Assembly: GCF_029227915.1 (NCBI RefSeq)
Contig: NC_079881.1
Location: 12,811,501-12,875,500, forward strand
Length of the DNA stretch: 64,000 bases
DNA from: Hydractinia symbiolongicarpus
Taxonomy: Eukaryota > Cnidaria > Hydrozoa > Anthoathecata > Hydractiniidae
Direction of reading: 5' to 3'
Notes under the pieces: generated by a model
The model's database searches: none
The model's input: only the letters and a program-made list of their open reading frames with translations
Told to the model about the DNA's origin: nothing
Shown: positions 6,355-64,000 of the stretch, in pieces
Numbering within the stretch: position 1 is the stretch's first letter
How the letters are laid out: every line of letters starts with the position of its first letter
Made by a program: the position numbers and the translations under genes

Positions 6355-6399
6355 AAAGTCTGGAAGCTGAAGGAAGAGATTGTAGCAAGACAATTTAGT

Positions 6400-37200: not shown

Positions 37201-37206
37201 TTAAAC

Positions 37207-40137: not shown

Positions 40138-40199
40138 TTTGGTTGCCATCAATCATATGTCTGCCTATTCTTATTATTTTCTCATTGGTAAGTATACCA

Positions 40200-41220
40200 T
40201 CTGTGGTAGCTAATTTTTGTATTCTCCTTCCTCTAGAGTTGCCCCCCTTCGTTCCAGAGTTGGTGCACGACGTTGTCCTTTTTCGGCAGGCCACCTATGC
40301 TGAGAATACAAAAAAGAGCTATCGCACGCATCGCAAGGCTTATGAATGTTTTTGTAGCCAGATGTCTTCGCCACTTGTGCCTGCCTCCACAGATTTTTTA
40401 TGCCTATATATTGCCCATTTGGCTAGGTTTTTACTACCACAATCAGTTTGTAGGTATCTAAATTTTGTTGGCCTTCTACATCTTGAGATGGGATATGCTA
40501 ATCCTCTAACCAACAATTGGACACTATCAACAGTTTTAAAAGGTATGAAGCGTATGCTTGGTGTTCCGGCCAAGCCACGTCTTCCTATTACCACTGCTCT
40601 TCTTTTTGGTATTCGTTCTCGCCTTAACCTAAATTGTAGCTTTCATGCTTCATTTTGGGCTGTTTGTTTAGTTTCATTTTTTGGTCTGTTTCATAAGTCA
40701 CATTTATTGCCGGCATCTTCTACGATATTTAATCCGCTCAAACAACTAGTTCGGTCTGATTTTACTTTTCATGATGACCATATTCTCGTTCTAGTTAGAT
40801 GGAGTAAGACTATCCAACTGGACAGCGCAGAATTACTGTTCCACTGGTGGCTATTCCTTCTTCTCCTCTTTGTCCAGTTCGGGCTATTTTGCATGCTTTT
40901 TCTCTCACTCCAGGTGTTCTACCTGATGCTCCAGCCTTTTGTTGGCGCAAATCCTCGATGCTACCCAACACTCTATTGACATATCGGACTTTCATGTCCG
41001 TTATGAAAAAAGTGTTGACAGATTTAGGGTGTTCTACCTCCCAATATGGTACCCACTCGTTTCGCCGTGGGGGGGCATCTTCGTTTTACAGGCAGGTGTT
41101 CCCCTGGATGTCATATCCTTATTGGAGGACTGGAAATCTGATAGTATGTTTCTTTACCTTCACATGCCCCTTGCTCAGCGGTTTTCTGCCCAACGACTTA
41201 TGGCATCACACCTTGCATGA
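40200..41220 (+). pseudogene. YR retrotransposon tyrosine recombinase (broken)
   Basis: It spreads over three frames. Frame one (to about 40840) has the SAM-like core-binding domain (TYAENTKKSYRTHRKAYECF, CLYIAHLARFLLPQSVCRYL) and the block LFHKSHLLP, where the catalytic Arg of the usual FRKSNLLP is His, plus the lysine block WSKTIQ. Frame two (about 40847-41090) has CPVRAILHAF and YGTHSFRRGGASSF with the HxxR pair. Frame three (about 41090-41220) has LLEDWKSDSMFLYLHMPL with the Trp and the nucleophilic Tyr. The Arg-to-His change and two frameshifts make the copy inactive. Confidence 0.8.
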
Positions 41221-41335
41221 CATATTTTATTTTCTACTACTACTTGGGATTTGGACTCTATGTTTTCACATATTTTACGTTGTGAGCTATACTATGTATA
41301 TATATATTTTGTTCATGCTTATTAATATTATATAG

Positions 41336-42946: not shown

Positions 42947-43038
<92 letters not shown>

Positions 43039-43070
43039 TTCTTTATTCCACGTTAGGGGGACCCCGCTCG
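42850..43070. repeat. (AT)n microsatellite with inverted TGTCCCC flanks
   Basis: A pure AT run spans 42948-43037 (about 90 bp). Directly before it TTACGGGGACA (about 42858) and TGTCCCCGTAA (42925-42935) form 11-bp inverted arms, with further TGTCCCC copies between. Confidence 0.85.
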
Positions 43071-45097
43071 AAATGTATAATAAGGTGACACCTCATATTT
43101 CATGAACAAAGCTTTTTTGCTCAAAACAATTTTAATATTCGAGACCTATTTGGGATGCTGACACAGCTAGGGTATGTTTTATGGGGTTTCGGCGATAGCC
43201 ACATTTTTTGTGTCCCCTTTAATTTTTCAAAGTACAATAGTGAGATTCGGGGGACGTGTCTCCCCAATCTTCCTTTAGGACAAAAAAATATAAATTTTTT
43301 TTTGAGTGCACAAATAATTAAAAAATTATTTATACACATTCGGGAATTAGGGAACACTATAACATGTTTTACGTACCTTTATTCTCCGTTACGGACATGA
43401 TTTACAAATATATATATATATTTTTTAAGCTTCAGCATTGAATATCTAATAAATCCTTTTTGCACAATTATGTGCACATTACTTTTGAAATGCAAAGTGC
43501 TAAATAAGTCTCTCGTGCTATGCTATAACAATAAAAAATCATTCCAACTTGTTTCTTATTATTGCGTTTCATCTCCTAACCCATTATAGCAATATAGCTA
43601 GGTAAGACTTGACAATTGTTGTTACTTTCCCTTTTTACGCATTGCGGTATTTTTAAGACAATAATGAAAACTTGTGAGGTAACTAGCTGCCATAAATAAA
43701 GTTTTTTCATTTGTAACATTGGTGCAGCTACAGCTTGAAGCAATTTTAGCATGTTTCGATCTTGAACCTTGTTTCTTCTGGACAAGCTCTTATGTGAGTA
43801 CTGAGTATTTTAAATAATTAATAAATCAATTTATCGCAGTATTTTAAAGAGTAAAAATACAAAGCAAAAGGTCACTAATTCATGTTTTCCTTATGCCTTA
43901 CGCTCTGCCGGGGTTTTAAATTTTTTTTCCTACAAGCGCTTTTCTAGTGGGCAGACCTGCGCGATATTAAACTCCGTAATCTTAGAATCTGAAGAAATTC
44001 AAAGAATGAAATCATAAAATTTCTAGTTAAGATAAGGAAAATGCAGGGTTTTTACCTTGACTTTGGTAAATTATTTTTCTACAATACAGCTACAATACAA
44101 ATTATATTTTATCTTCTTATAACTGAGAAGAACTGAAAATAAACTGATTAGAAATGCTAATTAGGTCATTTTAGATGTTAAGAAAAAATTCTGAAATAGT
44201 ACTTCTCTAATCAAATGATGGAAATAAGAAGTGCCTTATTTGTGGTATAACGACCGGCGAGGCATATTTTTGATTGGTTTTTTGTTTGTTTACTCTAACC
44301 AGATGTCAATATTTGTGCGAACTAACGAAGTTTACCCTTCTTTGATCGATCTCAAGAAACGGAAAAGACATTAAAACAACTCTTTACTCTAAGACAATTT
44401 TCCACTTGCAGGATCATAAAATTTCGGTAAACGAAAAGAATGGCTTATGATTTATACCCAATCATGCCTTAGTTACCTGTTCCGTTCATGTCGGAAAAAA
44501 ATATTCTTGAAGCAGTCGTTTTAAATGTGAGCTTTTCGCTGTTTCTAAAACTATTATGTATTTTCACTTCATATTTTTGAGCAAATAATGTAAAAGTTGA
44601 CCAATCTACGTTTAATCAATTTATAAATTTCTGTCCAGTTTGTTCGGAAGTGGATTTACACTTGAGACACCTGTTACTCCGAAGATTGGTGAAACAGCAA
44701 AATCACTTGCGTATAACGTGACCGTGAGAAGGTACAAAAGGTCTACCCGACGGTAATTATTAGTGTATTGGCGCAAAACATTTCCTATAGGATGACACAT
44801 AGTCATTTCACAGGTTTGAACCAAGGAGAAATAAAGAAAGCAAAATGTGGACTAATTTTTCTTTCTGAACATAAAATCACAAATAAATTGCAAAGAATAA
44901 ATGGATCGATTCATAACTTAAAAAAAAGGAAAAAAATCCACACTAACTCATTTGTGCGTAATACATGTACAGAACGCAGGAATGTAAATAGACACCAAAA
45001 TGACTAGAAAGTAGGTAATTCAAAGCGACAACTTCACAAGTTAGCTAAAGTCAGTATATCCAAACAAAAAATTAGTAAAGCAAAAATAACTGCATGA
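43071..45097. other. Intergenic stretch downstream of the SET-recombinase gene
   Basis: No coding frame of convincing composition is seen. It should contain the 3' untranslated region and polyadenylation site of the minus-strand gene ending at 45098. Confidence 0.45.
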
Positions 45098-45492
45098 TTA
45101 ACTAGTTAGTCCAATTTCTTTCAACCTTTTATTCTTTATGTCATCGAACTTTTTCCGCTCGTTGTTTATTTTTGTTCGCACAGCGAAGGCAAAATTGGCT
45201 GATCCAAAGTAACTTTTTGCAAAATTTTCCATTTCCAGTCGACCTAAAATAATGCAAGAATGATTGAGTATACTCGCACAAAAGACACAAAATAGTTGCT
45301 TTAAGCAACTATGCCTCATTTGCAAGTGATTGTTCAAACAATCTATTTACCTATACTTAAAAACCATCGAAAAAAAGCTAAATTATTTGATACCTGGAAA
45401 TGGTCGATCATTGGTGCGACGCACGTAACAACCAAATTTTTCGAAGAACACTTTATTTAATTCCGAAGTCCACTTGACACTGGATTTGACAG
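45098..45492 (-). CDS. C-terminal SANT/Myb-like exons
   Basis: The last two exons read VKSSVKWTSELNKVFFEKFG, then FPGRLEMENFAKSYFGSA and FAVRTKINNERKKF, ending LKEIGLTS and TAA. The KWT…F…F…PG…A pattern and the closing basic helix resemble the SANT-like DNA-binding tail found after the recombinase domain in Crypton-like proteins. The upstream exon (45646-45599) uses acceptor AACCAG; an alternative acceptor at 45675 would read into a stop. Confidence 0.65.
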
Positions 45493-48400
45493 CTAAGTAT
45501 AAAAGCAACAATAAGATAAGTTTTGTTAATATCAAACCTAAAAAAGTGGTTTAACTAAACCTATATATATGAAGAAGCGATAAAAGTGTTCAACTTACGT
45601 TTGCATTTCAATCTCTCATTCTCTTCTTTATCTATTGGAATAAAATCTGGTTGTTTTTTTAAACTAGAAAATTCCTGGAAATTATAACTCTTGGTTAGCA
45701 AGACGACCATTCAAACTATTATTGCTTTAACAGAAAAAATATTGTCCTTTATAACTTATATATAGCAGCGTTTTTATACTATGGCAACTCAAAAATCAGT
45801 AAAGTTAATGACACTTGAAAGATCTAAGCATTTTTCAACATATTTAATCTCCAGGATCATTGGAAAGTTGAATTTCTGAGAGAATTTAAGATTGGGGAAG
45901 ACGCCAAATTCTTTAAAATCTAATTTGCACACGAAGCAACCTACAAAGGTTTCTTTAAACTTAATTTTTTACATCACTTACCTTCATAGGAAGTAGGATC
46001 ACATGAATCATCTCTAATTTGGGCATCTAGATAGAAATGGATATTCATAAACATGAAATACATCTTTTGCAAAAAATACTTGTACATCCCATAAATTTTA
46101 AACAATCCAGGTTGATATTTCTCGGTATATAAATAATTTTCATAACTGTCTAAGTGTTATTGAGAAAACTAAAATAAATAATTAAAACAGAAAGACTCTT
46201 GAAAGGATACTCACCAGTAATTTTAACGTACTTTTTTCTTTTTTTTGATCTGCCTATAATTCAAAGTCAAATGTACAATCAAATGGTCAACAAAAAATAC
46301 ATTTTTATTTCGGTGAACTCGCAATTACTTTTAAGTAAGTGAAAAAAAGTTAAGTACATGTAATTTGTAAAAATATTACGTTTAATATTAGTGATACTAG
46401 ACAATTTTCCGCAAAAACGTTAAGTAATATATTTTGCATAGAGGACTATAAAAACAACTTATATTTCATCAAGACCAGATATGATTTTTAATTGACCTAT
46501 GTGAGATTTAAAACAAATAAGGTCTGGTTTTCAAATTCAATGTTCTATAAATAAACATTTCCCACAATGCAGAGTAGGACAGGTTGAATAAATATTGTTT
46601 GGCAAAAAAATCAAAACTCAAACCACTCACCACGCAAAGGATACTTCCTAGCTTCAACTGGTACTAAAAACAAAAACAAAAAAACCATCGTATATCTAAA
46701 ACAAGGTCATGGTTGGTATTATAAATCAGACGTTGTTTTAAATTAAATTTAAAACTAACCATTTTTTGATTCAATAGCTTCTTCATCCGATGAACTGCTC
46801 GACAGCATCATCACTCTTTTCCCCACTGATCTTTTTGTCTTTGTCGCTGAATAAAAAACCAAAAAAAACAAACACTTTGCAAGTCACTGAGGCCCAAAGG
46901 ATTGAATCAATAAACTACAGTGAAGTATTAACCTTCAGCTGATGTTCTTACGGGAGTACTTGTCACTGCATAGTTAGTTGCCAATTTCTTGTCTTCTAAA
47001 GAAAGAAAGTATTAGTCTGCTATGTAGTCCATTGAGCAGCTTCAAGGTAATTTTCCAAACAATATAAAACAATGATGGGGAAGATCTTTAGGTTTTGGAT
47101 CACACATTGATTTGAAAAAATTTCATCAAAAACAATGACTAATAAAAAGAACAAAATAACGAGTTTTGTAACTAACAGAAATTTTCTCTATTTGCACCAG
47201 ACAACATTAGAAAAAGCAACACATACCTGTATGAGTTTTGTCTTTAAATGTTTTTAAACTTTTATCAGTTTCTTCAATATGACCGTTATCTATAAACAAT
47301 CAAGTTATAAACACTGAAAGACTTGCTAATCATGAAAAGTCATTCTACATTTTGCTCATCTGCAATCTTTTAATAATTTTTTAATGAAATCAAATTTGGA
47401 ACACGTATTATTTCGATCATAATAATCGTGAAATAATATTAGCTGATTTGAACATTTGTTAAATACATTATAAGAAAAAATTAAACAAATAAATGAAATA
47501 CAGTGGTTAAAACGACAAAAATTTATAAAAAAGGTTTAATAAAACATAACCCGGCAAGTCTTCCATTATATCCTGGTTTCCTAAATCTCAATAAACAAGA
47601 AAAAAATTAAATTTACCACTCATGATCTATGATAAAGTTGTTACCTAGAATGCGTGCCACTTCCACAATTTTATTCCATAGAGAAAGGCTCCTCCCTAAC
47701 AAATAAATACATACCGCTTGCATGGAGATTTATTAATTGTTTTCCAATCTTTGTGACTCCCATTAAAGCTAATGGGGCTTGATAAATATCTTTATTCATG
47801 CTTTCAGAATGACCCATATGGGCGTAGAACAGTTGTCTTTCCTGTTGTGGCAGGTCCAACGCAGCATATAAAGTGCTGACGCGGTGTCTATTAGTGGTTG
47901 CATTTATAATTTCCACATTGGTAAGTTCTAGTTTCTTACAGACTTCTTTCAATGCATGCCAGCCAGACACATTTAAAGATGACAGCTGTGTGCTGGCAAA
48001 CACAAAATCATTATTTTTATCGATACCAGCCTTGAATCTAAATTTTGGATCAACTAACCTTTTCATAGCAGAAGTAGTGTCGTTTGGAAATAAAACAGAC
48101 ACCAAATGATGATTTCCTTTACCCGTCATGTAGGTTATTTTTAGTGAACTCACTAATAGTTTGTCAGCTTCATTCAAACTCTGAAGACGTTGTTGATCAA
48201 TCCAGTTATCGCTTTCTGCTTCTAACCAATCTTTTACTAGGAGGCGACTTGTTTCCCCACCACGGCGCCCATTCAATAATGTTAGTCGTGTGAGTACTAA
48301 GTTCCTCAGTTCAACAAAAGAGTGAGCAGTCCATAACTCAAAAACACACAGTAGTTCACCCATTCTCTTGAGAATATGTTGATGTATTTTCTCAATGTCG

Positions 48401-51400
48401 CTTTCCAAAGGCAACTGACATGGTTTTCTTATTTTAACTAGCCTTTTTTTTTCAAGCTCGTATCGTGCAGAGGAAACCATGCAATCCTCGTTGGCTTTAT
48501 AGCATACCATAAATTTTTCGATTTCACTGGCCTCCTCTTCGTTAGCTAACATATATTGATGAGCATACAATATTTTTACACTTTTGTTGATGATGTAAAA
48601 AACATTCTGGCGTAGTCCTGGCTTAAGACTACGATCAACATTCAAAGTAACAGCGTCAATGGCATCAGTAAAACACGTAAAATTCTTTCGCACAAACATA
48701 TCTAACAAATTACCATGATCATGACAAACGCCATTCATCCTCTTAAAAGATTGGTACAGGCTACCTAACACTCGCATATGACCCCTAACAGATTTATTCA
48801 CGGTGGCTGCTTTTTCTTTTTTGACTACAAGCTTTGCAAACAACTTCATTCCAATTCGTAATATCATTTCATCTTTGCGACATATATTTCCTATTATTAA
48901 ACAAGGCAAATTAAATTTTCAAATATTCATTTTGTGTTTAAAGGTTTAGAAAATTGAAAAAAACATTATTTGCATCAATTTTAATGTACAGTGGAAGGTT
49001 GTACATTGAAATAGATGTTCTTAAACCTTTGGGGGCGTGAATACAAATTAAATAAACCTACATTTTTTTTCTGTCAAACATTTGTGAGTATTTATTTTAA
49101 CGAAATAAACTTAAAACCTTTTGAAAACATAATTTTATGAATTAGGTCAATAATCTAAAAGATCAATTCATATATTTTTTTTTAAATTAAACTACAACTT
49201 TAATTGAACACTTTTTTACTATTTCGCTCATAAAAAACAACAAAAAAATGTTACACTTGATCATATGCAGGATGTAACATGATTATGTTCATTAAATAAT
49301 TATTTGAATGAATTAAGGATTTCTATGAAATACATAAGGACTTTTAATGAATAGTACAAGTATTTTTTAACTCCTTAAATCCCAGAAGTTTCCTTTGCAA
49401 TTTTTTATTATTTTTGATTACTGTAGTTATTCATAATAATTTAATAAAGAACAATGAAAATTTCATGAATTGGTAACAAATGTAAAGAACAGGGATGTTA
49501 TCACCATAAAGCTGTCCTACAAATCAATTGCTAAACTATGAACAAGTATGGAAAAAAGCTCGTAACGTAAATATAAAAATGATAACTTACCTACGGGATC
49601 ATCTCTAAGCTTGGCCAAAATGACTTCCTTGAATTGATCCGACATTTGGAGTGACATTGGAAGGAAGTCCAGTGACAATGGCAAGCCTGTTGGGACAGCA
49701 TCTTGTCTTCTCATGCACGTTCTTTTGTGGCTGGCAAAGAAACGCTTAGAGATAAAAGCAGAGCATAAATTACAACGTTGCAATTCCAAGTATTTCTTTC
49801 TTTGACGTTCTCCTTGGAAAATAGGATTTTCTGTGGTAGCTTGCAACTTGTTGTACATTAAAATTCCTTCCCTTTTAATTTTTTTCCATTCCTCAATTTG
49901 CTTCACCTTAGTCATCTTTAGTGCATTTTTCACTCTTTCATTTTCCTTATGACATTTTTTAATGTGTCTGCTCAATTTTGAAGACATTATAGAACAATAA
50001 ATGCACATTCTATACGGTTTTTTGTAAGGACTTTTTTTCTGAAATAAAAAGATAAGATGATTCTAGAATTGCTACATAACACAAAACATAAAGCCTTGCA
50101 TCAATAATCCTAAATTTAAATAAAATAGCATTGGAAAGTATTAATCAGTCAGTAGTATATAAGTTTACACAATCTTAAAATGCATCGATAATAGTACCTG
50201 CAGTTTTTTAGACTCGGCTTCAATTGTTTCCTGTTCACTATCAGTATTCACAATGTCTAAATCCTCATCAATCTCCAAACCAGAATCATTTTTCACTGAA
50301 ACCTGTTTGTGTTAAATAATACTATTGATAATTAAAAATAATAAATTAGGAAGCAACTTGTTGGTAGTTCAAAAGGGCTGAACAAATCATTGTAAATTAA
50401 ATAAGCATCATCACAAAACTCACTTGTTCACAACAGCTGACTTCCCTAATGGTCTGCGTATGTTCAGCAACTTGACACACCTGCAAAATTTCCAGATATA
50501 AAAAAAGCTATGCAAGGATGTATGAAAAGTTATTACAAACATACAATACCTTTGTCGATGCTAGAGTTTCTATTTCTTCAAGATCAACTTTCATCTAACA
50601 TTAATAAAGAGTAACTATTAGGTGTATTTAATTATTACTATTGACCGTGGGACCTAATGGAATTGATTTTGGACTTTGACCTTATAAATGCAGGAGATGA
50701 GAAAATTGGACTCCTAGAATTAACATTCTTCTTACTTTGGCATGAATGCTGGAACTACACTACATATTGCTTTAATTAAGTAATCATTTGGTGGTGCATG
50801 CTTTATTACCAAGTCATAACATCAGACAACTGACAAAACAAGTACTTTTAAAATAAATTTTTAAAAAAAATAAAAACAAAAAAATTGAAATTACATGCCT
50901 TCAATGCACAAGGCAAATTAAGCAAGTTTGGGTCAAATCCGAGAAATTAAATTCTCACAAAATGTCAATATTTCATGATTTTCAACAAAAGTTCTACAAA
51001 AATAAGTTTTCAACCAATAAACCATTAAATTGGCGTTAAATGGAAAAGTTACTGAGCACAAAAAAAGATTTGGTTTTATAAAATCTAATCTTTTAAATTT
51101 AATGATTTTCTGAATAAATGAAGAATTTCCTATAATTTTCTCTAATTATAACCAGTGCATCACAATGTAACCTTTGTAAACCAAAATTAACTGTCAGGTA
51201 ATTTTACCATGAAGTTAATTTTTCATTTTTTCACTTCAACAATTCATAATTTTCAACATTTAGGTAAATCGATGACAGTATATTTTAGCAGCAAAAAAAA
51301 ACATGAAAATTTTATTAACCTGAACTAACATTTGCTGAAAATATACCGGCATTTGTATTAAATTTAAATTAGAAATGCTGCAATGTAAAAAATATATGAG

Positions 51401-54400
51401 TAATGATGGAATACATACGAACTTCTCCAATACTTTTGTCTAAAAATAAAATAGCATCAATTTATTACTAAAATTATCACACCGTACAACTTTCTAGTGG
51501 ACTTCAACTACACTGTATTCCAATAAAAAAAATGTGCAATGTCTTTATAGCATAATTATAACGGTAATAGTCTAAGCATTTCTTATATTAAATCAGGTGC
51601 TATCTATATCTCCTCCTCACAATTTAAAATCTTCAAAAACAAAAATGTACATAGGTGAATCTTTATTATATCGCAATAAAGATTCACCTACATAGGTGCA
51701 CCATCCAGATAAACTATCTAACATATTGCCGTAGTGTGGTGTAGTGGTTTTGTCTTTGGCTCCCAACTCTAGGGTCCGGAGTTCGAATCCCACTCGCTGC
51801 CTGGCAGTATGTTAGTGATGAACAAAATAGTTCTTCTTCATTATAACAAAAATGTATATGGGAGAATTCTAACATACCAGTGTTTCAGTTTTGTCATTTC
51901 TAAAAAATAAACATAGAAATATTACAACAAAATTATCTTTAAAGAACTAAATAAGTTACTTTAATTTCGACTAAAAAAGCATTGTTTACATCGTTTACAG
52001 CAAATCTCATGTGAATGACACCATAAAAACACCAATTTTTCATAGTTTCGTTTGTAATATTTTATCACTTTTTGTAATATTTGAAAACAATAATTACCTA
52101 AAATTAATTTTTAATGGAAAAGTTGTTTCTTCATTACTACCATTCAAAATGGAACACTAAAAAATGAATAGTAAGTTTAAAATTTTTAAGTATTATTAGT
52201 GGAATTACTGGACCTTCAATACTTACTGTTTCACTGTCAGAACTGCTGAAATCAGGGACAATTTCAATTTCCTGAAACATAAATATTTATCATCAATACA
52301 ATTAAAAATTATACTTTAAACGGAATCATGAATTGCATACATACTGGATAAGTAATTTTTACATCATCGTCACTACAATCCAGCTTGGCAAAATCTATGT
52401 CCTTGTAGTAGTCTGCAAATTTATCTCCACCAATGACATTCTTTTTATTTACACCACTGCCAATATTTTCCTGAATCTTTTTTTTTGATTGGTAAGTACT
52501 GTTCTTGTACGTATTTACACCTGATGCAACCACATCTGCACTCTTGTAATTTCGACCTTGGACACTGACAACATCTGCAATGATCTCAGCAACTTGTTCT
52601 TTATTTTCACAACCTATTTTCATATCCTGTATACCAGCAATATTCGTTTCCTCAACATTCTGTCCATGTAGAGGTTCATCACCACAATATCTGTCCCCTT
52701 CGTTTGATTCTACTTGTGTATAAACAGTAGGATTATCCACCTTATAACTCACACTACCAGCAACACGATTGACCAAAACTGCATCTTTGCCTTCACCTAC
52801 ACTTTGATTGTGTAAACTATCAGAATTATTGCCCTTGGGTTCACATACATCAACAAAATCAAGAACCTTGTCATTAGTGACACTTCTATCTATAACACTG
52901 ACAATATCTGTAATGATTTCAGCAGCAACTTGTTCTTTATTTTCACCAACTATTTCCATATCCTGTATGATAGATGTGTTTTCAACATTTTCTTTAAGTT
53001 GGAGTTTATGAACACAATATTTCTCCCCTCCCATATTTTCTAATTGCATGTAAACAGTAGCACCATTTGTCTGATAACCACCATTAAAACCTTTGCATTT
53101 AATATTTTCCTCTACTTCCTCCTCTAATTTTTCACACAAATCAACATTCTGACCATTGATAGCAACTGAATCTTTTCCTTCGCCTACGTTTTTACTATAT
53201 AAACGAACAGGATCGTTATTCTTGGGTTCATATACATCAACAACATCAATAAACTTTGCATTCACATCATCTTTATCTTTTACACAGGTGTCAGATTTTA
53301 GTTCAATACTTCCGTCTTTTTTCCGAACAACTACTTGATCACATTTTTCTTCGTCATTTTCCCCATTATCTAAAACAAATAGATCAGGTAAGGAGTATTC
53401 AAAAGTAAATAACATGTGTATAATACATATATATTGCAGTTCAGGGTGTATGCTACTCAAATTATTCAGAAACTTATATATTGTTCAGTTCATGTTTCTA
53501 AACTATTTAGTTACAATTCAATATTGCCTCTGGATTTTCCTTTTTTAACCAAGTTGTAATATCTTTGTTTAACCTTTTTCATATCATCCCAAAGAAGAAT
53601 GAGATTAATTTTCCAGATGGACCCTCCTAAATAAATTTAGCCTGCATAAGTTCTATTTGAATTAAATCAGTCAAAACAGTATCTACAGAATCCAGAACCT
53701 ATAGTACAGCATAAAATAGATAAGTGTAAGCAAATTAGGAAAATAATGTTATAATTACTGGAATTAGGCACTTAAAGTGAGACCATCCATAAAAATATGT
53801 CTGTTTTCTGTAACCGACACATTAAAATATCTTAACAGCTAGGTAGGCGATAATATTTTTTACATAAAAAAAATCAGTATCATATTGTCATATTTTTGAC
53901 ATTCTGCGCAAAGCATGTGAAAATCTGCATGACACGTGAAAATAACAAACCTAATAAATCAACCTATAAACCTAATAACATAACAAACAAACCAAATCAG
54001 AATTTAATTAGATAAAGAGTGTGAATTAAAATATTTACACTGATTATTTCAAATTATATGGATTTGGCATACAATGTGTATTTATAAATAATTCATAAAC
54101 TTTTTGTACTTATAACATTTCACCCAGCCATTTTACCCGAAACAAACACATTTTTAGAGATAGCATGGGAAAGGGTGTTACGTAATTGAGAAATTTTCAC
54201 ACATTACAAACCTATCACTTCTGTTTGAAGAATGCAATCATGAATCTAATAAAAATAATTCAATATTTTTAAGATACATGTAACGTTAAAAACAACATAA
54301 TTAAAGTATATATCTTACCTTGTCCAGACATTCCTTGACATCTTCCTCTGTTGTTGCACTACCAGAAATGAATTCATCATCCTAAGTGCAATATTAGCAA

Positions 54401-57400
54401 AAAATTACTGTACAGTAGAAATAATTTTGTTTTATTTATGGGAGTGATTCTCAAACATTATCTTTGTGTATGTTTCGTCTATATGGAGGAGCAAAAGATT
54501 GCTTTATTAGCAACATATTTTTTGTTGTATGGTAAAAACATAAATATTGTGCTACAGTTTAACTCTTGTTATTAAATACAAAAAAATTGAAATCGATAAC
54601 ATATTGGTTAAACAAATCATTTTCAAAAATTGGATAAAATTAAGTCATTTTGACACATATCAGAATTCCAATCTTAAAAACTACACAACATAAAATATTT
54701 AAATGAAAAAGAGAAAATGAAAATTGTGGATATATAACTGATTATAACTTAAAATTATTCCAAAATAACTTGTACAGTAATTAGAGCTAATATCGTGGAA
54801 GCTTTTCTTCAAAATTAACTTTTTAGTATGGCTAATAACAGGAACCAAAACGTGGACATCATGAAAGATTACAATATTGATACAAAAACATTTTGCCTTA
54901 AAAATGTAGATGGCTTACATGTTCAGAATAAATTTTCTTTTTTTGGTTATTCTAAAATCACAAAAAAGGTTTTATTATAAACACAAGAATTTTTTGAACA
55001 AAAAGTTCAAAATCTATGATTGGATACTCACAATTACATTCCCAGGATCGCACAAAACAAACTGAAAAGAAAGAAAAGAAAAATAGCAGTTACTCTAGTG
55101 AAGAAAAAGAAAAATGTATATATTACAAAAAAACTTACTCCCTGCTTGGTAACAACATCAATATTTGCAAAATATGGTGAAGCAGTCTCCTTGTTCTAAA
55201 CATAATAGAAGTAACGGTTGAAGTTCTCAAAAAAAATTTTCGAATATTTTTTTGATATTTTTCAAAAAAGAATCAAAAATAATTATTGTTAAGGCAACTC
55301 CAATGTTCTACGGGAGAAATCGATAGTAACTTACGGTCGGGTGGCAAAATAAAAATAATTTTATTGAGAATGTATGGTTGGAACAACAACAAAAATAAAG
55401 AAATACACACTAACAACGGCGGTTAAAAAATAAAAAAATTCAAAAAAATCGTTTGTAACCGTTTCAACTCGCTTGGTTGATTTGAAATTCATTTCGTAAT
55501 CATTTCCAAATCATTTTGTATTCATTTCCCATTAGTTTTTCACAAAAATAAGAATTAATTCGTTTCATCTACGTTAAATTCGTTTCGGTTCAAATTGCTT
55601 TAAAATCACTTAAATTGTCACACATGTTTATAAGACATTGTCAATTTCTAAAGAAATTTAACTATCAAATTACGTAAATAACTGCATTCTTCTTGCAGAA
55701 ATAATAAAATTCTTCGCTAAAAACGAATATGTAACAGATTTTCTGTTACAAAACGTTTTAGCCGATATTATTTTTTTGTTTTCGTGAAAATTAGAGTCTG
55801 TCGAGCCTGTAGAACAACTAATGAAGTTGAAGTCGCCTAAAAGTTACAAAATGAGAAAAAATCTGTGTGCTCAAAGTTAAAATTCCTCAAATATATTTAA
55901 TCTGTATGATAATTAAGGAGTTTTAAAATTCCTCTAATATATTTAACCTGTATGATAAGTAAGGGGTAACTAGGGTAATAACTAGGTTCTGCAAAAACAC
56001 TTTACCTCTATGTTTAATAAAATATTCATGACTTATTAATTATTCACAAACATAACATTCCTTTAGCATGATTTTTGCAGTGCAAAATTTTTGAATTGCA
56101 TTTTCTCGAAATAAAATTTTCCAACGTAACAGTACATAGTTTTGTTGAACACTCCTCTCCATTTTGTCGAAATTCTATGAAAATAAGTTTGTTGCGACAA
56201 TTTATTTGGCTACAAAACTTTGCTTTTTTTAGCGCAAAAGTGAGAAAATATCGAGCTATTGATCCATCATATACTTAAAAATTGATAAATCAGTCATAAA
56301 ACAGCTGTTGTAAAACAAAATATGCTATATTTTTTGAACCACGTTTTGTTTTGAGTAAAAAAAGCAAAGTTATTTAGAGCTGAATAAGATCTTTGCAACC
56401 ATATGTTTTTCAAGAAACAAAAATTTTACTGAAGGGAGTGTTTGGTAAAATATACTAGAAAGGTGAATTTCTGTAAATAATTTTTTTTCTCCTTCTTGGA
56501 TTTTTTTATGGAAATATTTTATCATCATTCTAGAGATAATTTATTTGGCTTTCAGAATATATATATATATATTTGTTACAGTTAATAAAGCAAGCAGAGA
56601 AGATATTTTAAATATACTGAGAATGTGTCTAAGGGGGTTACCGTATCCTTAATGGAAGTTGATGTCCTTTAAAAGGCATTCCAGGAATGCCTTTTTAGAG
56701 GACAATTGCATCGCGTAACTTGGTGAACTGGCGTATGTGATTGATCACATAAGCACCTATTTTTAAAATGAGAAGCCTGATTCATCACAACTATAAAATC
56801 TAACTAAAAAGAAATAACAAAAAAGTGACAAAGATACTCACTTTTCTCCAAAAAAGTTCTTTCATATCTCCATACGAATATCTCAACTCTTCTCCAATAG
56901 ATATGACTTTGTCACACAAAACAAACAGGCAAAGATGCAAATGCCCATTATCATCATATATCGGTTTCATGCAACAGTTTTTGGCATTTTTGCTGTCATT
57001 AACGTATTTCCCAAACTGTGTGTTCTCAGTTGCATCAATGCTATTATAAATAATCTTAAAATTGCAGTATATTACCTAGAGTACTTTTCAAATTTCACAA
57101 CTGACTTTTGTGACAATTTTCCTGAATATTTTATGAAAATCAAATTTTCCATTTTTCTCAAAAGAAAATATTTTTTGCCGGCATTTATTTGCAAAAATTA
57201 TCCTGTGCTCTTTACAAAATTCGTAAATAAAGTTTCTTTCCAACAATCTTTACGCAAGTAACTGCTGTGGATATTAAAATAATCACAACATATATGTACA
57301 ATTTGCTTACCAACTGTTATTATAAAAAAATAAAAAGGAACCAGCTTCATCAGGATATGTAGATTGCAATTTTTCACCCTCAACTTTACTAATACAATTT

Positions 57401-57642
57401 CCAGCATACTCAAGAAGAAATTCACCATGTTGAAATGTTTTTGTAGCAAACACTCCAAAACCTTATAAAAAAAGTTGTATCATAATAATGTAAAACAGTT
57501 CACACCCTATTTGGAAGCATAATAGATGTATACCTATGTTGTCATTGATGAATAATTTCTGGAAACCACTTTGATCTGCTTTTTGTTTGCAATAATACTT
57601 TGCAATAGAACGTGGGTCTGTCTCACGCTTATTCTGTCGTCT
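45098..57642 (-). CDS. SET domain - zinc finger - tyrosine recombinase fusion gene, 26 exons (start exon not found)
   Basis: Exons in reading order: 57642-57534, 57461-57311, 57040-56842, 55195-55139, 55061-55032, 54381-54319, 54245-54212, 53369-52345, 52271-52227, 52156-52098, 51899-51878, 51439-51419, 50594-50550, 50480-50424, 50302-50198, 50038-49591, 48890-47715, 47289-47227, 46995-46933, 46846-46760, 46663-46631, 46253-46215, 46026-45982, 45646-45599, 45492-45394, 45243-45098. Every border is GT-AG, every phase fits, and the total is 4269 nt = 1423 codons including TAA. Domain order: SET (about residues 37-153), acidic linker with a duplicated segment (215-556), two Cys/His fingers (675-824), tyrosine-recombinase-like domain (825-1216), low-complexity acidic/basic linker (1217-1342) and a SANT-like end. 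SET lysine methyltransferases modify chromatin proteins; Crypton-type recombinases move DNA. The fusion suggests recombinase-derived DNA targeting of a histone-modifying enzyme, or an unusual mobile element. This functional reading is inference. An upstream start exon must exist because exon one opens with a splice acceptor. Confidence 0.85.
47715..48890 (-). CDS. Tyrosine-recombinase-like catalytic exon
   Basis: A large exon of 392 codons. The N-terminal helical part corresponds to a core-binding domain. The catalytic signature is then visible: first Arg in LNGRRGGETSRLLV, the beta-hairpin Lys in YMTGKGNHHLVSVLFP, the second Arg box in ATTNRHRVSTLYAALD (where the His of HxxR is replaced by Thr), the His box FYAHMGHSESMN, and the nucleophile Tyr three residues on in KDIYQAPLA. 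The order and spacing are those of tyrosine recombinases, and the GHS…N…YQ ending matches Crypton-type proteins. Arg-Lys-Arg-His-Tyr are all present, so catalysis is possible; the lost first His is tolerated in some family members. Confidence 0.8.
49591..50038 (-). CDS. Zinc-finger exon of the fusion gene
   Basis: The exon starts KKSPYKKPYRMCIYC. The first finger is C-x2-C … H-x3-C-H (CIYCSIMSSKLSRHIKKCH). After a helical lysine-rich linker (KMTKVKQIEEWKKIKREGIL) a second, CNLCSAFISKRFFASHKRTC, has C-x2-C … H-x3-C. Fingers of this kind precede the catalytic part in many Crypton-like proteins and could bind DNA or a partner. The exon ends DDPVG with the last codon split and joins directly to the recombinase exon. 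Confidence 0.8.
51653..51870 (+). repeat. tRNA-derived SINE-like insertion with a perfect hairpin, in an intron
   Basis: TGGTGTAGTGG (A box) and GAGTTCGAATCCC (B box) lie 45-50 bp apart at about 51735-51800, the layout of a pol III tRNA promoter, but the T and acceptor stems do not pair, so it is not a working tRNA. Immediately left, 51653-51667 and 51675-51689 form a perfect 15-bp hairpin (AGGTGAATCTTTATT arm). The segment is flanked by near-identical ACAAAAATGTACATAGG and ACAAAAATGTATATGGG, possibly target-site duplications. Confidence 0.5.
52345..53369 (-). CDS. Acidic exon with an internal duplication
   Basis: The exon encodes 341 residues rich in Asp, Glu, Asn and Val with no recognised fold. 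Two tandem units of roughly 115 residues are evident: VDVYEPKNND / VDVCEPKGNN, then VGEGKDSVAINGQNV / VGEGKDAVLVNRVAG, then ATVYMQLENMGGEKYC / PTVYTQVESNEGDRYC, then IIQDMEIVGENKEQVAAEII / GIQDMKIGCENKEQVAEII. The segment is probably a disordered linker grown by duplication. The phase entering the exon is 1 (Asp codon split G|AT) and leaving is 0. Confidence 0.8.
56842..57642 (-). CDS. SET domain exons of the fusion gene
   Basis: Three exons give a complete SET domain. The lead-in RETDPRSIAKYYCKQKADQS is followed by FGVFATKTFQHGEFLLEYAG (SET start), DEAGSFLFFYNNS joined to CIDATEN across the second intron (split codon TG|C), FGKYVNDSKNAKNC (the NDS/NH cofactor-binding region), MKPIYDDNGHLHLCLFVLCD, and GEELRYSYGD with the catalytic-site Tyr, then WRK. 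The pattern resembles the KMT5A (SET8) group of single-lysine methyltransferases. The first intron splits a Gly codon at the SET start. The usual NH of the SET signature appears as NDSKN, so activity needs testing. Confidence 0.85.
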
Positions 57643-57865
57643 CTAAAAATAAATACAAAGATGAACAAATAAAAATTGAAGTAAATGAAAAGTAGAATTT
57701 CACCCTTTGGCAGCCAGGTCACTTTTTTATTTTTTTCAAGAAACGTAGATGTACTCTAAAGAATCACAAATAAAATTCCTTTCATATAGTAAAAAAATAA
57801 TTTTACTAAATTAAATTTAAATTTTACAAAAATTTGAATAAATTTTATGTTACCTAAAATTATTT

Positions 57866-58270
57866 AAAGGTTACCTCCCGCGAAAAATAAAGGTAACTGC
57901 ATATACAAGTACTTGAAAGGCTGTCTAGGAATTTGAATATTTTTTTAAAAATTCTTGATTGGTTCTTTAGAATTTGGACTAAGAAGATTTACTAATTATG
58001 CATGATGACAAGCCATAGAGAGTTAAAAATGTTTCCTAGCCATTCACTTTGACGCGTTTTGAACATTTTTACATAAATTTTAACATTTAGTTATCATAAT
58101 TATGCTCAATTCATACTCATGGCATCATAATTTTGCATAATTAGCACAACTTTTAAGACAAATATCTCAGAAACGGATAAAGATTTTTCAAAAAAATAAA
58201 AGGATTTCTAGAGAACTTTCAAAAATCTTTCATATGAGCTTAACTTAATTTTTTGCGGGAGGTAACCTTT
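57866..58270. mobile_element. Non-autonomous inverted-repeat element (405 bp)
   Basis: Terminal inverted repeats of about 23 bp: AAAGGTTACCTCCCGCGAAA on the left and the complement (TTTTTTGCGGGAGGTAACCT plus TT) on the right, with one base inserted. No ORF. It lies upstream of the known 5' exon of the fusion gene, possibly in its first intron. Confidence 0.7.
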
Positions 58271-58271
58271 G

Positions 58272-59094
58272 AGGTGGCAGTAACCCTTCTTTAGCTGTCC
58301 AAATAGCTGAATTATTTACTCAGTGTTTTATTTATACCATTTTATTTTACTATTTCCTAGAAATATAGGCCTTAATACATAAGAAAATGATTTTAACTTA
58401 ACACTAAAATTGCTGAGTCAGCAGAAATTTCTTTTTAAAAATGTTTCAAAAACAAGAAAAACTTTTTACAATCTCGTTATTTTTCATCAGCTTCTGTTTT
58501 TAAATGAACCTTGGGTTAACCCTGTTAAAACGGTGTGCGGATTTTTTTTGTTCATTCTTATTTTTTTAACAATAGCCTTTAATCTTTTTTCAAAAGATTT
58601 TTTGTTAGCATCCCCTGCTGCATCAAACGCTGTTAAAAGAAAAATATCCCGAATAAAAAGATTTCCGCACACCGTATCATGGCTGCATGATTCACCAAGC
58701 ATGTCTGAAAATTTTAAAGTAAAACGAAAATGCTATTGAAAGTTACAGCTTGTGCAATGTAGCATAATGAAGATCATCTTAAATTTCTTCATAATGCGCC
58801 ATCTTTGTTGTTATTAACGTTTCTCTTTAATAATTACATCATTTCTTTCTGTACAATTTCACAACCATGTAGACTTAAACTATACTCGGGAAAACTAATT
58901 AATTATTCATGAATTTTATTTTAAAGAGGAATTTTTAAGGCTAAATATTTTTGGTGAAAGATAATAGTATTATAGCCATAAAATCGTGACAAGTGTGTTA
59001 TAACAGAAAAAATTGGATATATATAGTCTGAAAATAACCTTACGTCACCAATTATGTAAAAAAAATCCGATTTTTAAAAGGATTACTGCCACCT
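58272..59094. mobile_element. Inverted-repeat element directly abutting the previous one (about 823 bp)
   Basis: Ends AGGTGGCAGTAACCCTT and, in complement, AGGTGGCAGTAATCCTT (17 bp, one mismatch). The inside contains 58745-58995, whose inverted partner is at 21645-21890. It also holds a 12-bp inverted pair ACGGTGTGCGGA / TCCGCACACCGT at 58530 and 58664. An open frame at 58410-58739 lies across this hairpin and is not convincing as a gene. Confidence 0.55.
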
Positions 59095-60750
59095 TAAAAT
59101 AATGTTTTATTATTGTAATAACATATACAGTACCGCTTAAATGTACACAAGTTTTAGGATCTCATGTCTCATTTCTACATAAATATCTTTTATTCATTAC
59201 CTCTTTTGTAGACTGCGTAATTGAAGAATTAAAAACAGCGCTTCATTTTTTGCGTTTTTATTTCCATGTGATTTCTTTGAATAATATTACTCGCTACAGT
59301 TTTATTTAGGAGCTTGATTGTTCACGCACATAAGGAATGAGTTCGTATTTTAGGCGAGTTATTATTCACTTGTCTAACACATTTTAGGACCGTGCCAAGG
59401 TGCATGCGTGCGATCGCGCACCTAATATGAGGCAGTCTGCAAAATCATTTCTATACATCTTAAATAACGAAACGTTGTGGTAAAAAAAAATAGTTAGGTG
59501 TGATTCACACTGGCTAATATTCACATTGCACTTGTAAATTTTGCTTACAAGTGCGATTTTTTGCACTCCATATAGCACTGGTAATTTTTTAGCGGGTGCT
59601 TTTTCTGGCTCTGGCCTGACATATTAGAAAAGTTAAATCATTGTGGGTATTAAATGTGTGTTTTTGTAAAATAACCTTCACACAAAAAATCATTGCTACC
59701 TGTTTTGTTTTGTCTTAAAATGTTTGTATGTTTTTTTGTGTCATAAAACAAACGATACAAAGTACATTATATACTTCGTTATGCTAAACGAAAACAATAT
59801 TAAGTGCTTTGTTTAAAGTAAAAAGTACAAACGAAGTCCATACAAACTTTTTTATAACATGATACAAAATGTTTTCTTGTCACTTAAAAAAGGAATATGG
59901 CCACGTTAAAGCTCTGTAGAGACATTTTCTCATCATTTTAAAAATAAATACAACTTTCAAGCTTCATAGAGACGTTTTCTCATCACTTTAAAAAGAAATA
60001 TGGCCACGTTAAATATATAATATATATGTAAATATATGGTAGTATAAAGACAAAGTGATTTTATGCCAAATACAAGTCAAAATATAGTACGTTTATATTA
60101 AGCCTGTTAAGTATTATAATTTATTAATTATAATCGAATAATTATTCTATTGAATTCTTCACCACCATCATTTGCATGGTGAAATTTAGCCCATAGTAGG
60201 ATTAAGTACTTTTTTCTACAAGAAAAAAAACTTACTTTTGACATTGATGCAAACTTTTATTTATTGTCAATTTACCTAGTAACAAAGATTTAAATATGCT
60301 AAACATGGACCATAATATATTGTTCTGTTTCACATGAAAACCTATTACCATAATCAACTTTTTTTAACATATATATACATAGATATTTCAGGGTGTTTGT
60401 AGTTGCGGCAATCATGTCTCAGCTGAATAGAACCAACCACAATAATTTACAAAATGATTAATTAAATGTGTGAGTGGGTCAGGAATACATAGCGGGGTGC
60501 AACTTACCGAAAGAGATTCAGGAGAGTTTACTGTATTTAAAGAAACTCCTAGTTTTGCAAGGAAAAGACTATACATTTGTTTAAAAAATTAAGCAAAACA
60601 TATACTTTTTTATTGTAGTAAAACATCGTTACTATATCTGAGCATCCCACAAACTACCAAGTCAGAAAATCAAATAATTTATGACAACATTAATTTATCA
60701 ATCAAAACAAGATTTGCTTAAATTTGACGGAAAACATAATTCAGATATAC
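59095..60750. other. Non-coding stretch with short repeats
   Basis: 59528-59554 forms a hairpin (GCACTTGTAA / TTACAAGTGC, 7-base loop). 59885-60015 is a diverged tandem repeat of about 53-bp units (TAGAGACxTTTTCTCATCAx and AATATGGCCACGTTAAA). No supported gene is present, apart from a possible short exon at 59622-59545 on the minus strand (see findings). Confidence 0.5.
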
Positions 60751-60756
60751 TGTGAT

Positions 60757-61016
60757 AGTATTGTTCTGCCCAATCTTAGGAGACTGCCCAATATTTGGAC
60801 ATAAAAATGCCCAGTTCGTCAAAAGATTAGGCAGGAGACCATGGATGTGACACACAAGCTCTGTTGTTTGCAAGACCCTACAAACATTCTCAGGCACATT
60901 AAAAAAAATATATTTGGGGTATGTACATCAAAAACGAATTTGCCAGTACTGTTGAATTGACCAGGCCAGATTTGGCTAAGACGGGGGCCGTTTCAAGATT
61001 GGGCAGAACAGTATCA
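60757..61016. mobile_element. Non-autonomous inverted-repeat element (about 260 bp)
   Basis: Ends AGTATTGTTCTGCCCAATCT on the left and the complement of AAGATTGGGCAGAACAGTAT on the right: 19 of 21 positions match. Extra internal GCCCAAT and TGGACAT motifs repeat the end. No ORF. Confidence 0.7.
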
Positions 61017-61554
61017 TTGGGAAATTAGCAAGATAGTTTGGTGATATTGTTTTCGAAAACGCTGTATTTGATCCAATTTGATCAATAGACATATAGTTAA
61101 AATTGTAATACTATTCTCACTTCAAGGGAAGGTTATATTTTTTGTGGTGAGTCAATAAATGTAAGCTTGCTGTATCAAGCTGGTTTCTAATGTCTGACAT
61201 CAAGCAATGACAGATGAGCATTAAGTGCACAAGAAATGTGCATGATTCTGTGCAAAAATGCAAATTTGGACCAGAAAACACACACACATTAAGATTCCAG
61301 TATTTTGTGCAATTCAAACAACCATATTTCAACCATGACAATATACAGTAGTAAAAGCTGTTAAATTGAAAGCTATGACCTTGACCAAGAGAATAATAAG
61401 GCGTCAAATAAGAAAAACTGTTTTTACACTCAGCTATGCTAGCTAGCTATCACAGTGAAGTTAGTTTTAGTCAAATTCATAAGAAAATAAAAGAAAACAA
61501 AGAAAGTAAGAAACAGAAAATAAAAACACAAGAAACTTTGGCAGCTCAAAGCGC

Positions 61555-61644
61555 GAAGAACTTTCCCGCGTCCAATATATGACGTAATGTTGGTCAATAC
61601 TGCTACGCTATTGGTCAACAGTTTTTGGTTGCCTTCATATATAA
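61555..61644 (+). promoter_or_regulatory. Promoter-like cluster of factor sites
   Basis: Within 90 bp lie TTTCCCGCG (E2F-type), GTCCAATA (CCAAT box), TGACGTAA (CRE-like), two ATTGGTCA-like inverted CCAAT boxes and CATATATAAATGG. This density of known animal promoter motifs, just before an ATG in good context, suggests a real promoter. It could also serve the minus-strand gene, but no exon was tied to it. Confidence 0.4.
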
Positions 61645-62001
61645 ATGGCGAACATAGTTACGCTAAATTCAGCGGTGCCTGGAGAAATTATGAAAAGGTA
61701 TATGGTTACAATAGATTACACTTTGTTTTGCCCTCGAAAGGAGATGGTCAGAGAATCTATATACTTTAAATTTTTAAGTTTTTATTTCCTAGTTACGCCT
61801 GTGTATGTTAAGGGGTTTATAATCTTGGGTAATTAGATCATTTTAATTTGTTGTCTTACTTGTTCAGTTATTTTTGTTAATGTTTTTTAAATTTCTTATA
61901 GACTGAGCAAGTTGAATTTTGTAAACAAACTTTATGTAGACAGTTGTTTCATAAAAATGGCGTGTAAAGGTTTTAGCCATATAGCTGTTCTGCCTGGATA
62001 A
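61645..62001 (+). CDS. Possible two-exon small protein
   Basis: Exon one 61645-61697 (ATGGCGAACATAG start; donor AAAAG|GTATAT) and exon two 61902-62001 (acceptor TTTCTTATAG) join in frame to a 50-residue product: MANIVTLNSAVPGEIMKR, then LSKLNFVNKLYVDSC and a stop. Read-through without splicing gives 63 residues. It sits right behind a promoter-like cluster. No family was recognised, and the short length leaves chance a serious possibility. Confidence 0.3.
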
Positions 62002-62160
62002 TGAACATTGGCCTGATTAAGAAGTAGCTTGCCCTGGTTAAGAACAGGGCAGGAAATACATAATCAGGGCAACATAATCAGGACAGGCCGGCTTATTACT
62101 CAAAATAATTATTTGGCACTTATAAAAGGAACATAATCAGGTCAGGCCAGATTGTGTACG
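61990..62160. repeat. Short interspersed direct repeats
   Basis: Several copies of AACATAATCAGG and CAGGCCxG-type segments recur irregularly. A related block recurs beyond the next element at about 62690-62730 (TATGTATGACAG, AATATTATTCTTTATTGAAT), so the element 62213-62676 may have landed inside this repeat. Confidence 0.4.
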
Positions 62161-62212
62161 ACAGTCTAATATTATTTCTCACTTATTATAGAATGAACAT
62201 AATTGGGGCAAA

Positions 62213-62677
62213 GGTGCTGATAAGCCGCAAACGCCTGCGCATATATAAGGGCGAGTTCGGGCGACTTTTCGAATTAAATTGACGGTTGTCCGCCGAAACC
62301 GCCTGCACTTTCCCGAACTCGCTCGAAACATTCCTGAAATGCAACACCTTGTAACATAAACATGGCGGAAGACAATTAAAGAACACGCTTGAAGAGAAAG
62401 GAGGTAATAAAGTTTATATATAAGTTATTTATCAAGTAAATCTTATCAAAACCATAAAAACAGTTCTTTTAAGAACTTAGCTACCATATAGTTAGTTCAT
62501 TCTAATTTTTATACTTTTTTAAATAATTCTTCGAGAGTCATTTATGGTGAATCTTTTTTTCGGGCATTGTTCGGGACTATGCGGGTTTTTTTCGGCCAAA
62601 TACTGAATTTTCTTTAAAATGCCGAACTTACCCGAAAACACCCGCACTTTTTACGGTGTATGCGGCTTATCGGCACC
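62213..62677. mobile_element. Non-autonomous inverted-repeat element (about 465 bp)
   Basis: The left end GGTGCTGATAAGCCGCAAAC and the complement of the right end GGTGCCGATAAGCCGCATAC are inverted. Inside, CGAACTCGC, GGGCGAGTTCGGG and CCCGAAAACACCCGC form further GC-rich inverted pairs, unusual against the AT-rich background. No intact ORF; an ATGGCGGAAGAC start at about 62361 runs into a stop after five codons. Confidence 0.6.
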
Positions 62678-62869
62678 CTCGTGGGCAGGCCCACTTATGT
62701 ATGACAGGCAAATATTATTCTTTATTGAATTTCCGTGCCCGCAGGCGTAGGAAATTCTTTAAAACCGACGTTTTTTTCTTTCGGAGCATTTTTTAAGAAA
62801 AAATCGACCCTGGGATTTCACGTTCCTCCGTCACAGATTCAAACTTCTTACCCAAGCTCCCTAACTACT

Positions 62870-63135
62870 TGGAAGTCATCTAAATGACGTTTCAGGCCAA
62901 AATTGGTATTTGTTTTCGACAAAATTTGGCACAGTTAACAAAAAAATGTGCTAAACATAATGGTGACATAATAATTTTGATTTTTGTCACCTAAATGTCA
63001 TTTTAGGCCAAAATTGGTCCAAAAATTCTAACTACTTTATTATAAACAAAATTTGGCACAGAAAAAAAGTATGCTGAAAATGATGGTCACATCAAAATTT
63101 TGATTTTTTGTCAACTAAATGCTGTTTAAGACCAT
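62870..63135. repeat. Tandem repeat, two units of about 120-125 bp
   Basis: Shared order: AACTACTT, TCAxCTAAATGxC, TTTxAGGCCAAAATTGGT, ACAAAATTTGGCACAG, ATGCTxAAxATxATGGT and ATTTTGATTTTTGTCA. A partial third unit starts at about 63110. Confidence 0.75.
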
Positions 63136-63399
63136 AAACGTTTCAAGCGCAAGACTTTTAACTATCAATGATAGGCTGTAATTTTGTTAGCAATTTCTTT
63201 TAAAATGTGAGTTTATTACGACACGTTTCGTTTTGTTTCCGTTTGTTTAAGATATAATGTCACATGTGTGCTTTATCTTCAGAGCTTAATGCACCAAACC
63301 TCTTCGAATGTCTGGCACGATAACACAACGAATTAGCAGGTTGTCATCAAATATTTTGGTAGCGAGCGGAAATTCTTAGAGCCCCCAGAGCTTCTTGTA

Positions 63400-63719
63400 T
63401 TATGCTTCAGAACAAGTCCATTGACGTCTTTGAAGGAATTCATATGATTGATGCCTTAAAAAGTGCTGCCATAGCTACCCGAAATCGGTTGATGCTTACC
63501 ATGACATTTGGTGTGAGAAAGCTATATTTTTAGCTCAAAAAGTGTGTTACTCCTGCAAAATCTGGGACTTGTGGCCGTCAAAGAAAGAGGTCCAACATTC
63601 CTGCTGATAACATTTCAGAATATTTCAAATGGACAACAACTATTCCAATGTTGGTGCTGGAGTTTATTTTTAAGTAAGATGCGCTCTCTCATCAAAATTT
63701 AAGTGAATTAATTCAATAG
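63400..63719 (+). pseudogene. hAT-type transposase relic
   Basis: Plus-strand pieces in three frames add up to a conserved hAT (ZMYM1-like) segment: NKSIDVFEGIHMIDALKSAA, VDAYHDIWCEKAIFLAQKV, then CGRQRKRSNIPADNISEYFK, TIPMLVLEF and DALSHQNLSELIQ. The RQ…RSN.PA….EY…..IP.L pattern is diagnostic for the insertion region of these proteins. Two or more frameshifts and internal stops show that it is dead. The 5' part is missing or unrecognisable; the remainder toward 64000 is non-coding. Confidence 0.65.
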
Positions 63720-64000
63720 TAAGGTTATATTAAAATATTGGTAATAAATAGTAAAAAGTAATAGTAGTAGTGTCGTAAATAATTATATAATAAGAAATAC
63801 TCTCCCCTTTTTTTTGGTGATGACAAACCTGCTTGATTTCAAAATGTTCCCCGGGCTCAGTAACTTCGCTGACAGTACCTGGGTCAAGGAGCAACTAAGT
63901 TTTTTTCTTTTCTCCATTGATGATTGCGATTGTGATTGCTATAATGACATGATTAATCCATACCTTCCTTTTGTTAAATTTTTCACACATTAGTTATATA

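Follow-up and report, generated by a model that had tools for sequence, protein, structure and literature searches.

A SET domain fused to a tyrosine recombinase in a probable giant DNA transposon of the hydrozoan Hydractinia symbiolongicarpus

What is the nature of a gene that joins a SET domain to a tyrosine recombinase (YR) in an animal genome? The question is raised by a 64,000-nucleotide stretch of Hydractinia symbiolongicarpus DNA (G000:C7:12811501-12875500, within a 480.9-Mb assembly, the single assembly examined), which we refer to as the window. An earlier note on this DNA had read the gene either as a domesticated chromatin regulator or as a mobile element with its own chromatin modifier, had named two adjacent genes as the finding that would undo the fusion, and had suggested a search with the joined protein, a count of genomic copies, a look for target-site features and an assessment of recombinase residues. 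We conclude, with a probability of roughly 0.88, that the fused gene encodes the recombinase of a giant (~30 kb) YR DNA transposon, autonomous and recently active, which carries its own SET domain. This element is called family 1 here, its window copy being the 'own' copy, and a related set on contigs C6, C8 and C9 is called family 2.

The final model of the gene has 28 coding exons on the minus strand, which total 4296 nt and encode 1431 residues (Table 1). In our hand-built exon model every internal border reads AG/GT and a single frame stays open over 1433 residues. The protein search returned P0001 (RefSeq LOC130649644 isoform X1, H. symbiolongicarpus, 1431 residues), which is identical to the hand-built model at 1421 of 1433 alignment columns, drops one 15-nt exon and gains the first exon; a third protein search (alignment A3) returned P0001 alone. 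The fused gene of the earlier note is therefore real, and its matching splice borders and frame hold, whereas its tally of 26 exons and 1423 codons does not. Over the 388 recombinase residues compared, P0001 is identical to copies L001-L004 and differs once from the window copy, so the RefSeq sequence most likely belongs to the other C7 copy (L004, C7:23.7M).

The product comprises, in order, an N-terminal KMT5A-like SET domain, two zinc fingers (ZFs), the YR and a C-terminal three-helix domain. The YR carries R, K, R, H and Y in order on a YR fold, with structure matches to XerH, IntI and Cre; Foldseek on its own was not significant at 0.001 for this domain, and the profile libraries did not identify it. 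The predicted R-K-R-H-Y core is kept among relatives (R in 35/35, K in 33/35, R in 32/33, H in 30/30 and Y in 31/31 rows). The ligands of the first finger (CxxC..H..H) are retained in 29/29, 29/29, 30/31 and 33/33 rows, and those of the second (CxxC..H..C) in 33/34, 33/34 and 34/34, its last ligand being C in 32/34 and H in 2/34. The SET domain spans residues 40-147, and its best match of known structure is the SET domain of KMT5A/SETD8, which differs in lying at the C-terminus of a short protein. Like many of its relatives, the window gene has the C-terminal domain, which forms three helices in P0002.

The fused gene is not alone. Among the matches listed by the genome search, and so as lower bounds, the YR exon occurs at 99% identity and without stops in 10 places on seven large contigs: C1 (2), C2 (2), C3, C4, C5, C6 and C7 (2). 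The listed matches also hold one degraded copy at 95-96% identity, with stops, and at least 13 further places at 38-49% identity, six of which share one score. A lone domesticated gene was rejected in view of these 10 near-identical exons.

The copies have common, sharp ends. The flanking stretches of the copies were aligned to the window. On the right, homology in the window copy and in six others breaks off at one point, the start of a (TA)n repeat of 52-274 nt; the repeat adjoins the right end in 7/7 copies read, and the sequence after it differs from copy to copy. The right end was absent from the flanking stretch first aligned for the C1:27.67M and C5 copies, and the C6 copy is truncated by the start of its contig. 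On the left, six of the seven ends read (C7b, C1a, C2a, C2b, C4 and C3) share the point ...TTATAGACA followed by (TA)n, with differing flanks in the five copies where the repeat ended inside the stretch. Searched against the whole genome, the right end gave 9 places and the left end 16 rows, made up of 10 full-query matches at 97-100%, one full-length match at 95% and 5 partial ones. Both ends are present in eight copies, 29,459-32,158 bp apart. Dispersed, near-identical copies that have sharp ends in common, lie in different surroundings and adjoin (TA)n strongly support the second reading of the earlier note, that of a mobile element.

No terminal inverted repeat was recognised between the two 400-bp ends, which share only short internal matches (best E 4e-4). 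A MITE-like (miniature inverted-repeat transposable element-like) inverted repeat at 57866-58270, with 137-nt arms at 72%, was ruled out for this role, as it sits in intron 1. By eye, another short inverted pair (gaggtggcagtaa) is visible near 58290/59090.

The left end of the own copy lies at C7:12883996 (window-equivalent 72496), and a second left end is found 6,536 bases further out, which would give a length of 35,995 bases. These two left ends, 6.5 kb apart (C7:12883696-12890532), reflect either a partial tandem duplication that includes a 105-bp satellite or an assembly artefact.

The variation among copies is informative about their age. Seven of the ten copies were compared (own, C1a, C2a, C2b, C7b, C3 and C4, with C6, C5 and C1:27.67M set aside). 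Of the 15,147 positions of the gene, 9,954 are covered in every one of the seven, the 1025-nt linker exon lying outside the covered part. Over these positions they are pairwise 99.25-99.99% identical, C2a and C2b differing once. Variable sites are rarer in exons (9/2,805) than in introns (100/7,149; Fisher P=4.7e-7), and the changed codons are 4 synonymous and 5 nonsynonymous, of which the SET codons (1-156) account for 3 and 0, respectively. Small as these counts are, they point to a protein under constraint while the copies spread. Since introns are kept in the stretches compared, reverse transcription of spliced mRNA does not account for the spread, and movement was at the DNA level.

Exon constraint would also be expected of a domesticated host gene family, in which a recombinase fold aims a chromatin regulator and the copies arise by ordinary gene duplication. 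The many introns, the occurrence of relatives across phyla and the early-embryo expression of KMT5A-like genes reported in PMC10368294 agree with such a family. It would not account for identical sharp (TA)n termini within unrelated flanks, nor for near-identity that extends into introns and non-coding ends, and the catalytic residues here are kept, whereas domesticated Crypton domains are described in PMC3212892 as lacking most of theirs. We consider such a host family improbable.

Several observations nevertheless weigh against an active transposon. Beyond the nearer left end of the own copy lies other sequence, not (TA)n. Over exons 18-24 the cut-short C6 copy has one stop and the C5 copy a one-base gap. 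The truncated C1:27.67M copy differs from the window copy at 6 of 1,909 exonic and 9 of 2,105 intronic positions, with 5 nonsynonymous changes to 1 synonymous. Of 13 (TA)20+ runs in 358,565 bp (overlapping stretches counted more than once), 12 lie at element ends, which favours the transposon, but the tally is biased because the stretches were chosen at those ends. Nor did the one assembly show a recombination product, a circle or an empty site. With 27 introns, the gene seems atypical of transposase genes. The HxxR histidine is replaced by T in 31/33 rows and by D in 2/33; as this position varies among YRs, we do not take its loss to exclude membership. Finally, the window SET domain reads NDS where KMT5A has NHS, which makes its activity unsure.

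A second case of the same kind is family 2, whose YR is 39% identical to that of the window and whose copies are 99.8-99.9% alike over ~5 kb. In 3/3 of these copies the element ends at one common point, followed by (TA)n and differing flanks, and this terminus has 11 full-length 100% matches and one partial match in the genome. The upstream part was read in one copy (C6, L038), and there SET exons precede the ZF-YR exon. The SET motifs of this copy are NHS and LRYNYG, and the idea that an H-to-D change in NHS marks all fused SET domains was withdrawn accordingly. A (TA)n run in L040, considered as the family 2 left end, was dropped, since it was not shown to be that end. In each family a tandem array precedes the SET-YR gene, with ~105-bp units in family 1 (window-equivalent 65273-69692) and ~114-bp units in family 2 (L038:4893-7501); an assembly gap comes after the latter, on the left-end side. 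Such arrays could be regulatory or could bind the recombinase.

Family 2 also bears on whether the SET-YR gene is mere cargo, moved by the enzymes of another element whose TA-repeat-targeting transposase produced the (TA)n ends. Insertion into TA microsatellites is reportedly known for Mutator-like elements (MuTAnT in Medicago), a likeness that lends the idea some weight, the differences being the Mutator transposase class and the plant host. Cargo would have to explain why a family with so divergent a YR has the same SET and YR exons and the same (TA)n junction. It also sits poorly with the lack of recognised terminal inverted repeats and of any other large open reading frame (ORF) in the parts of the element listed, a list that would miss the small exons of a split gene. 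We give this explanation little credence.

The search with the joined protein also found the fusion in other animals. In Hydractinia, P0004 and P0015 are of the form SET-kinase-ZF-YR, P0015 ending short of the catalytic core, and in Hydra P0017 and P0018 are kinase-SET-ZF-YR proteins identical at 1351 of 1407 ungapped columns. SET domains also occur in sea urchin P0010 and, in part, in crinoid P0006; mussel P0013 is an FN3-SET-Ulp1 peptidase-ZF-YR protein, and Diadema P0011 has a SET remnant, recognised by alignment only. Between P0004 and P0015 identity is 88% across the 463 residues of SET-kinase but 38% across ZF-YR, which suggests module exchange. A YR tree built by a quick method groups the proteins mainly by host, with good support for 13 of its 33 inner branches; support for a 9-row SET tree is weak. 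These relatives all but dispose of the view that adjacent SET and recombinase genes were joined only by annotation. The SET cassette or the linker could each stand alone, because their border is phase 0-0, and the gene models of the other relatives listed, P0002, P0003, P0007 and P0008 among them, are without SET. The RefSeq model and the fusions in P0004/P0015, P0010, P0006, P0013 and P0017/P0018 join what that view would separate, the family 2 copy has SET exons ahead of its YR, and we find the view scarcely credible. A viral origin was rejected as well, none of 15 pattern stretches in IMG/VR encoding a relative.

How a transposon of this anatomy might move can be sketched. The tyrosine recombinase would recombine the (TA)n flanks, giving either a released circle or direct synapsis with (TA)n elsewhere in the genome. 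As the dinucleotide repeat would be common to donor and target, (TA)n would lie on both sides with no readable target duplication. The ZFs and the C-terminal domain would bind element DNA, and the SET domain may methylate a histone (lysine 20 of histone H4, H4K20, by analogy to KMT5A) or a different lysine, located at the element or its target, probably keeping chromatin permissive or coupling movement to replication.

Fungi are known to have giant YR transposons, and the Starships of Pezizomycotina resemble the Hydractinia element in size and in having a YR. They differ in that here the host is an animal, no cargo gene was recognised and the recombinase gene covers about half of the element. 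The YR exon has no Pfam match to the Starship captain domain DUF3435 at E<=5, assuming that this model is in the library, and the two may be remotely akin. SETMAR/Metnase, reportedly a primate gene in which a SET methyltransferase is fused to a mariner transposase, is similar in joining SET to a transposase-type protein; here, in contrast, the fold is YR rather than DDE, the catalytic residues are kept and mobile copies are many.

Cryptons are likewise DNA elements moved by a tyrosine recombinase, and the earlier note had called the recombinase Crypton-type. According to PMC3212892, no terminal repeats were found in animal Cryptons (CryptonA), which also have no C-terminal domain, and a C48 peptidase is present in some CryptonF elements. 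The window element is similar in having no recognised terminal repeats, and mussel P0013 in its Ulp1-type (C48) peptidase. The ~30-kb length, the 28-exon gene with SET and ZFs, the (TA)n target, the threonine at the HxxR position and the C-terminal domain of the window gene and many relatives all differ. In Pfam the YR exon had no match, Crypton-derived domains included (DUF3504 being assumed to be in the library). Of the Crypton R-H-R-Y tetrad both arginines, one histidine and the tyrosine are kept, the kept histidine being a candidate for the one that the tetrad counts. We therefore do not retain the Crypton label as a statement of membership.

The element may also shed light on KMT5A-like genes, for which PMC10368294 gives counts of up to 65 (Hydractinia), 24 (Hydra), 61 (sea urchin) and one (Nematostella). 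Most have an N-terminal SET, 22 are activated early in Hydractinia, C-terminal ends are common to Hydractinia and urchin, and the proteins are described as predicted H4K20 methyltransferases; the main text contains none of the words 'recombinase', 'integrase' and 'Crypton'. With its N-terminal SET and long C-terminal part, the window gene plausibly belongs to this expansion. Some of the many unexplained KMT5A-like copies in hydroids may thus belong to jumping elements, and together with the relatives in Hydra, echinoderms and mussel the expansion suggests a widespread transposon group. We lean slightly towards a still broader proposal, in which the element represents one family within a superfamily of giant DNA transposons that has gone unrecognised in animals, a counterpart to fungal Starships in size. 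Its members would combine recombinase and chromatin writer in one protein encoded by many exons, use TA microsatellites as insertion sites, exchange accessory domains (SET, kinase, Ulp1-type peptidase) and explain the hydrozoan and sea urchin KMT5A-like expansions, including the burst of expression at genome activation. A mobile element with a histone-methyltransferase-type domain and its recombinase in one protein would show directly that a transposon can encode a chromatin writer. The titles and abstract openings in the literature searched describe no giant animal YR transposon with a SET domain.

Table 1. Features of the element and its SET-ZF-YR gene (window positions) and end-to-end lengths of its copies
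Feature	Position	Strand	Remarks
(TA)n tract at right junction, target repeat	42948..43037	.	adjoins terminus
In-window part of element	43038..64000	.	right terminus 43038; left terminus outside window
SET-ZF-YR gene, 28 coding exons, 1431 residues	45098..60244	-	hand-built exons and RefSeq P0001
First coding exon, ATGTCAAAA = MSK	60236..60244	-	sole start-donor pattern match in window; agrees with P0001
SET exons (57642-57534, 57461-57311, 57040-56842)	56842..57642	-	459 nt, phase 0-0 cassette
Linker exons, 13, many small and symmetric, including 1025-nt exon 53369-52345	50198..55195	-	exon model
Two-zinc-finger exon (CxxC..H..H and CxxC..H..C)	49591..50038	-	ligand conservation
Tyrosine recombinase exon	47715..48890	-	fold, conserved residues, genome copies
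C-terminal exons, nine, small	45098..47289	-	last two (45492-45394, 45243-45098) encode three-helix domain; fold taken from homologue P0002
End-to-end lengths, first four copies			own 29,459; C3 30,196; C7b 31,945; C2b 30,042 bases
End-to-end lengths, other four copies			C1a 32,158; C2a 31,423; C4 30,126; C5 31,303 bases

Nineteen of the 28 coding exons have lengths divisible by three, and in-frame skipping of many linker exons is therefore possible; a Hydra relative carries the isoform label X17, which bears on the same point.

Other elements and genes share the window. Kinase exons at 150-1299 on the minus strand (Pkinase, 2.5e-14) are ~40-44% identical to the kinase of P0004/P0015, and a second gene like those of the SET-YR family may lie past the left end of the window, where the kinase gene runs off. 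A retroelement at 37201-41335 on the plus strand, which ends ~1.7 kb outside the right terminus of the transposon, encodes a reverse transcriptase (RT; 7.6e-10) followed by an ORF with the tyrosine-recombinase-like motif GTHSFRRGGAS. That ORF has no Pfam match, and by its motif we take the retroelement to be DIRS/Ngaro-like. An element at 5593-8619 on the plus strand, resembling those without long terminal repeats, has endonuclease-like and RT ORFs (RVT_1, 8.5e-21), with a PHD finger (2.2e-6) in the RT ORF.

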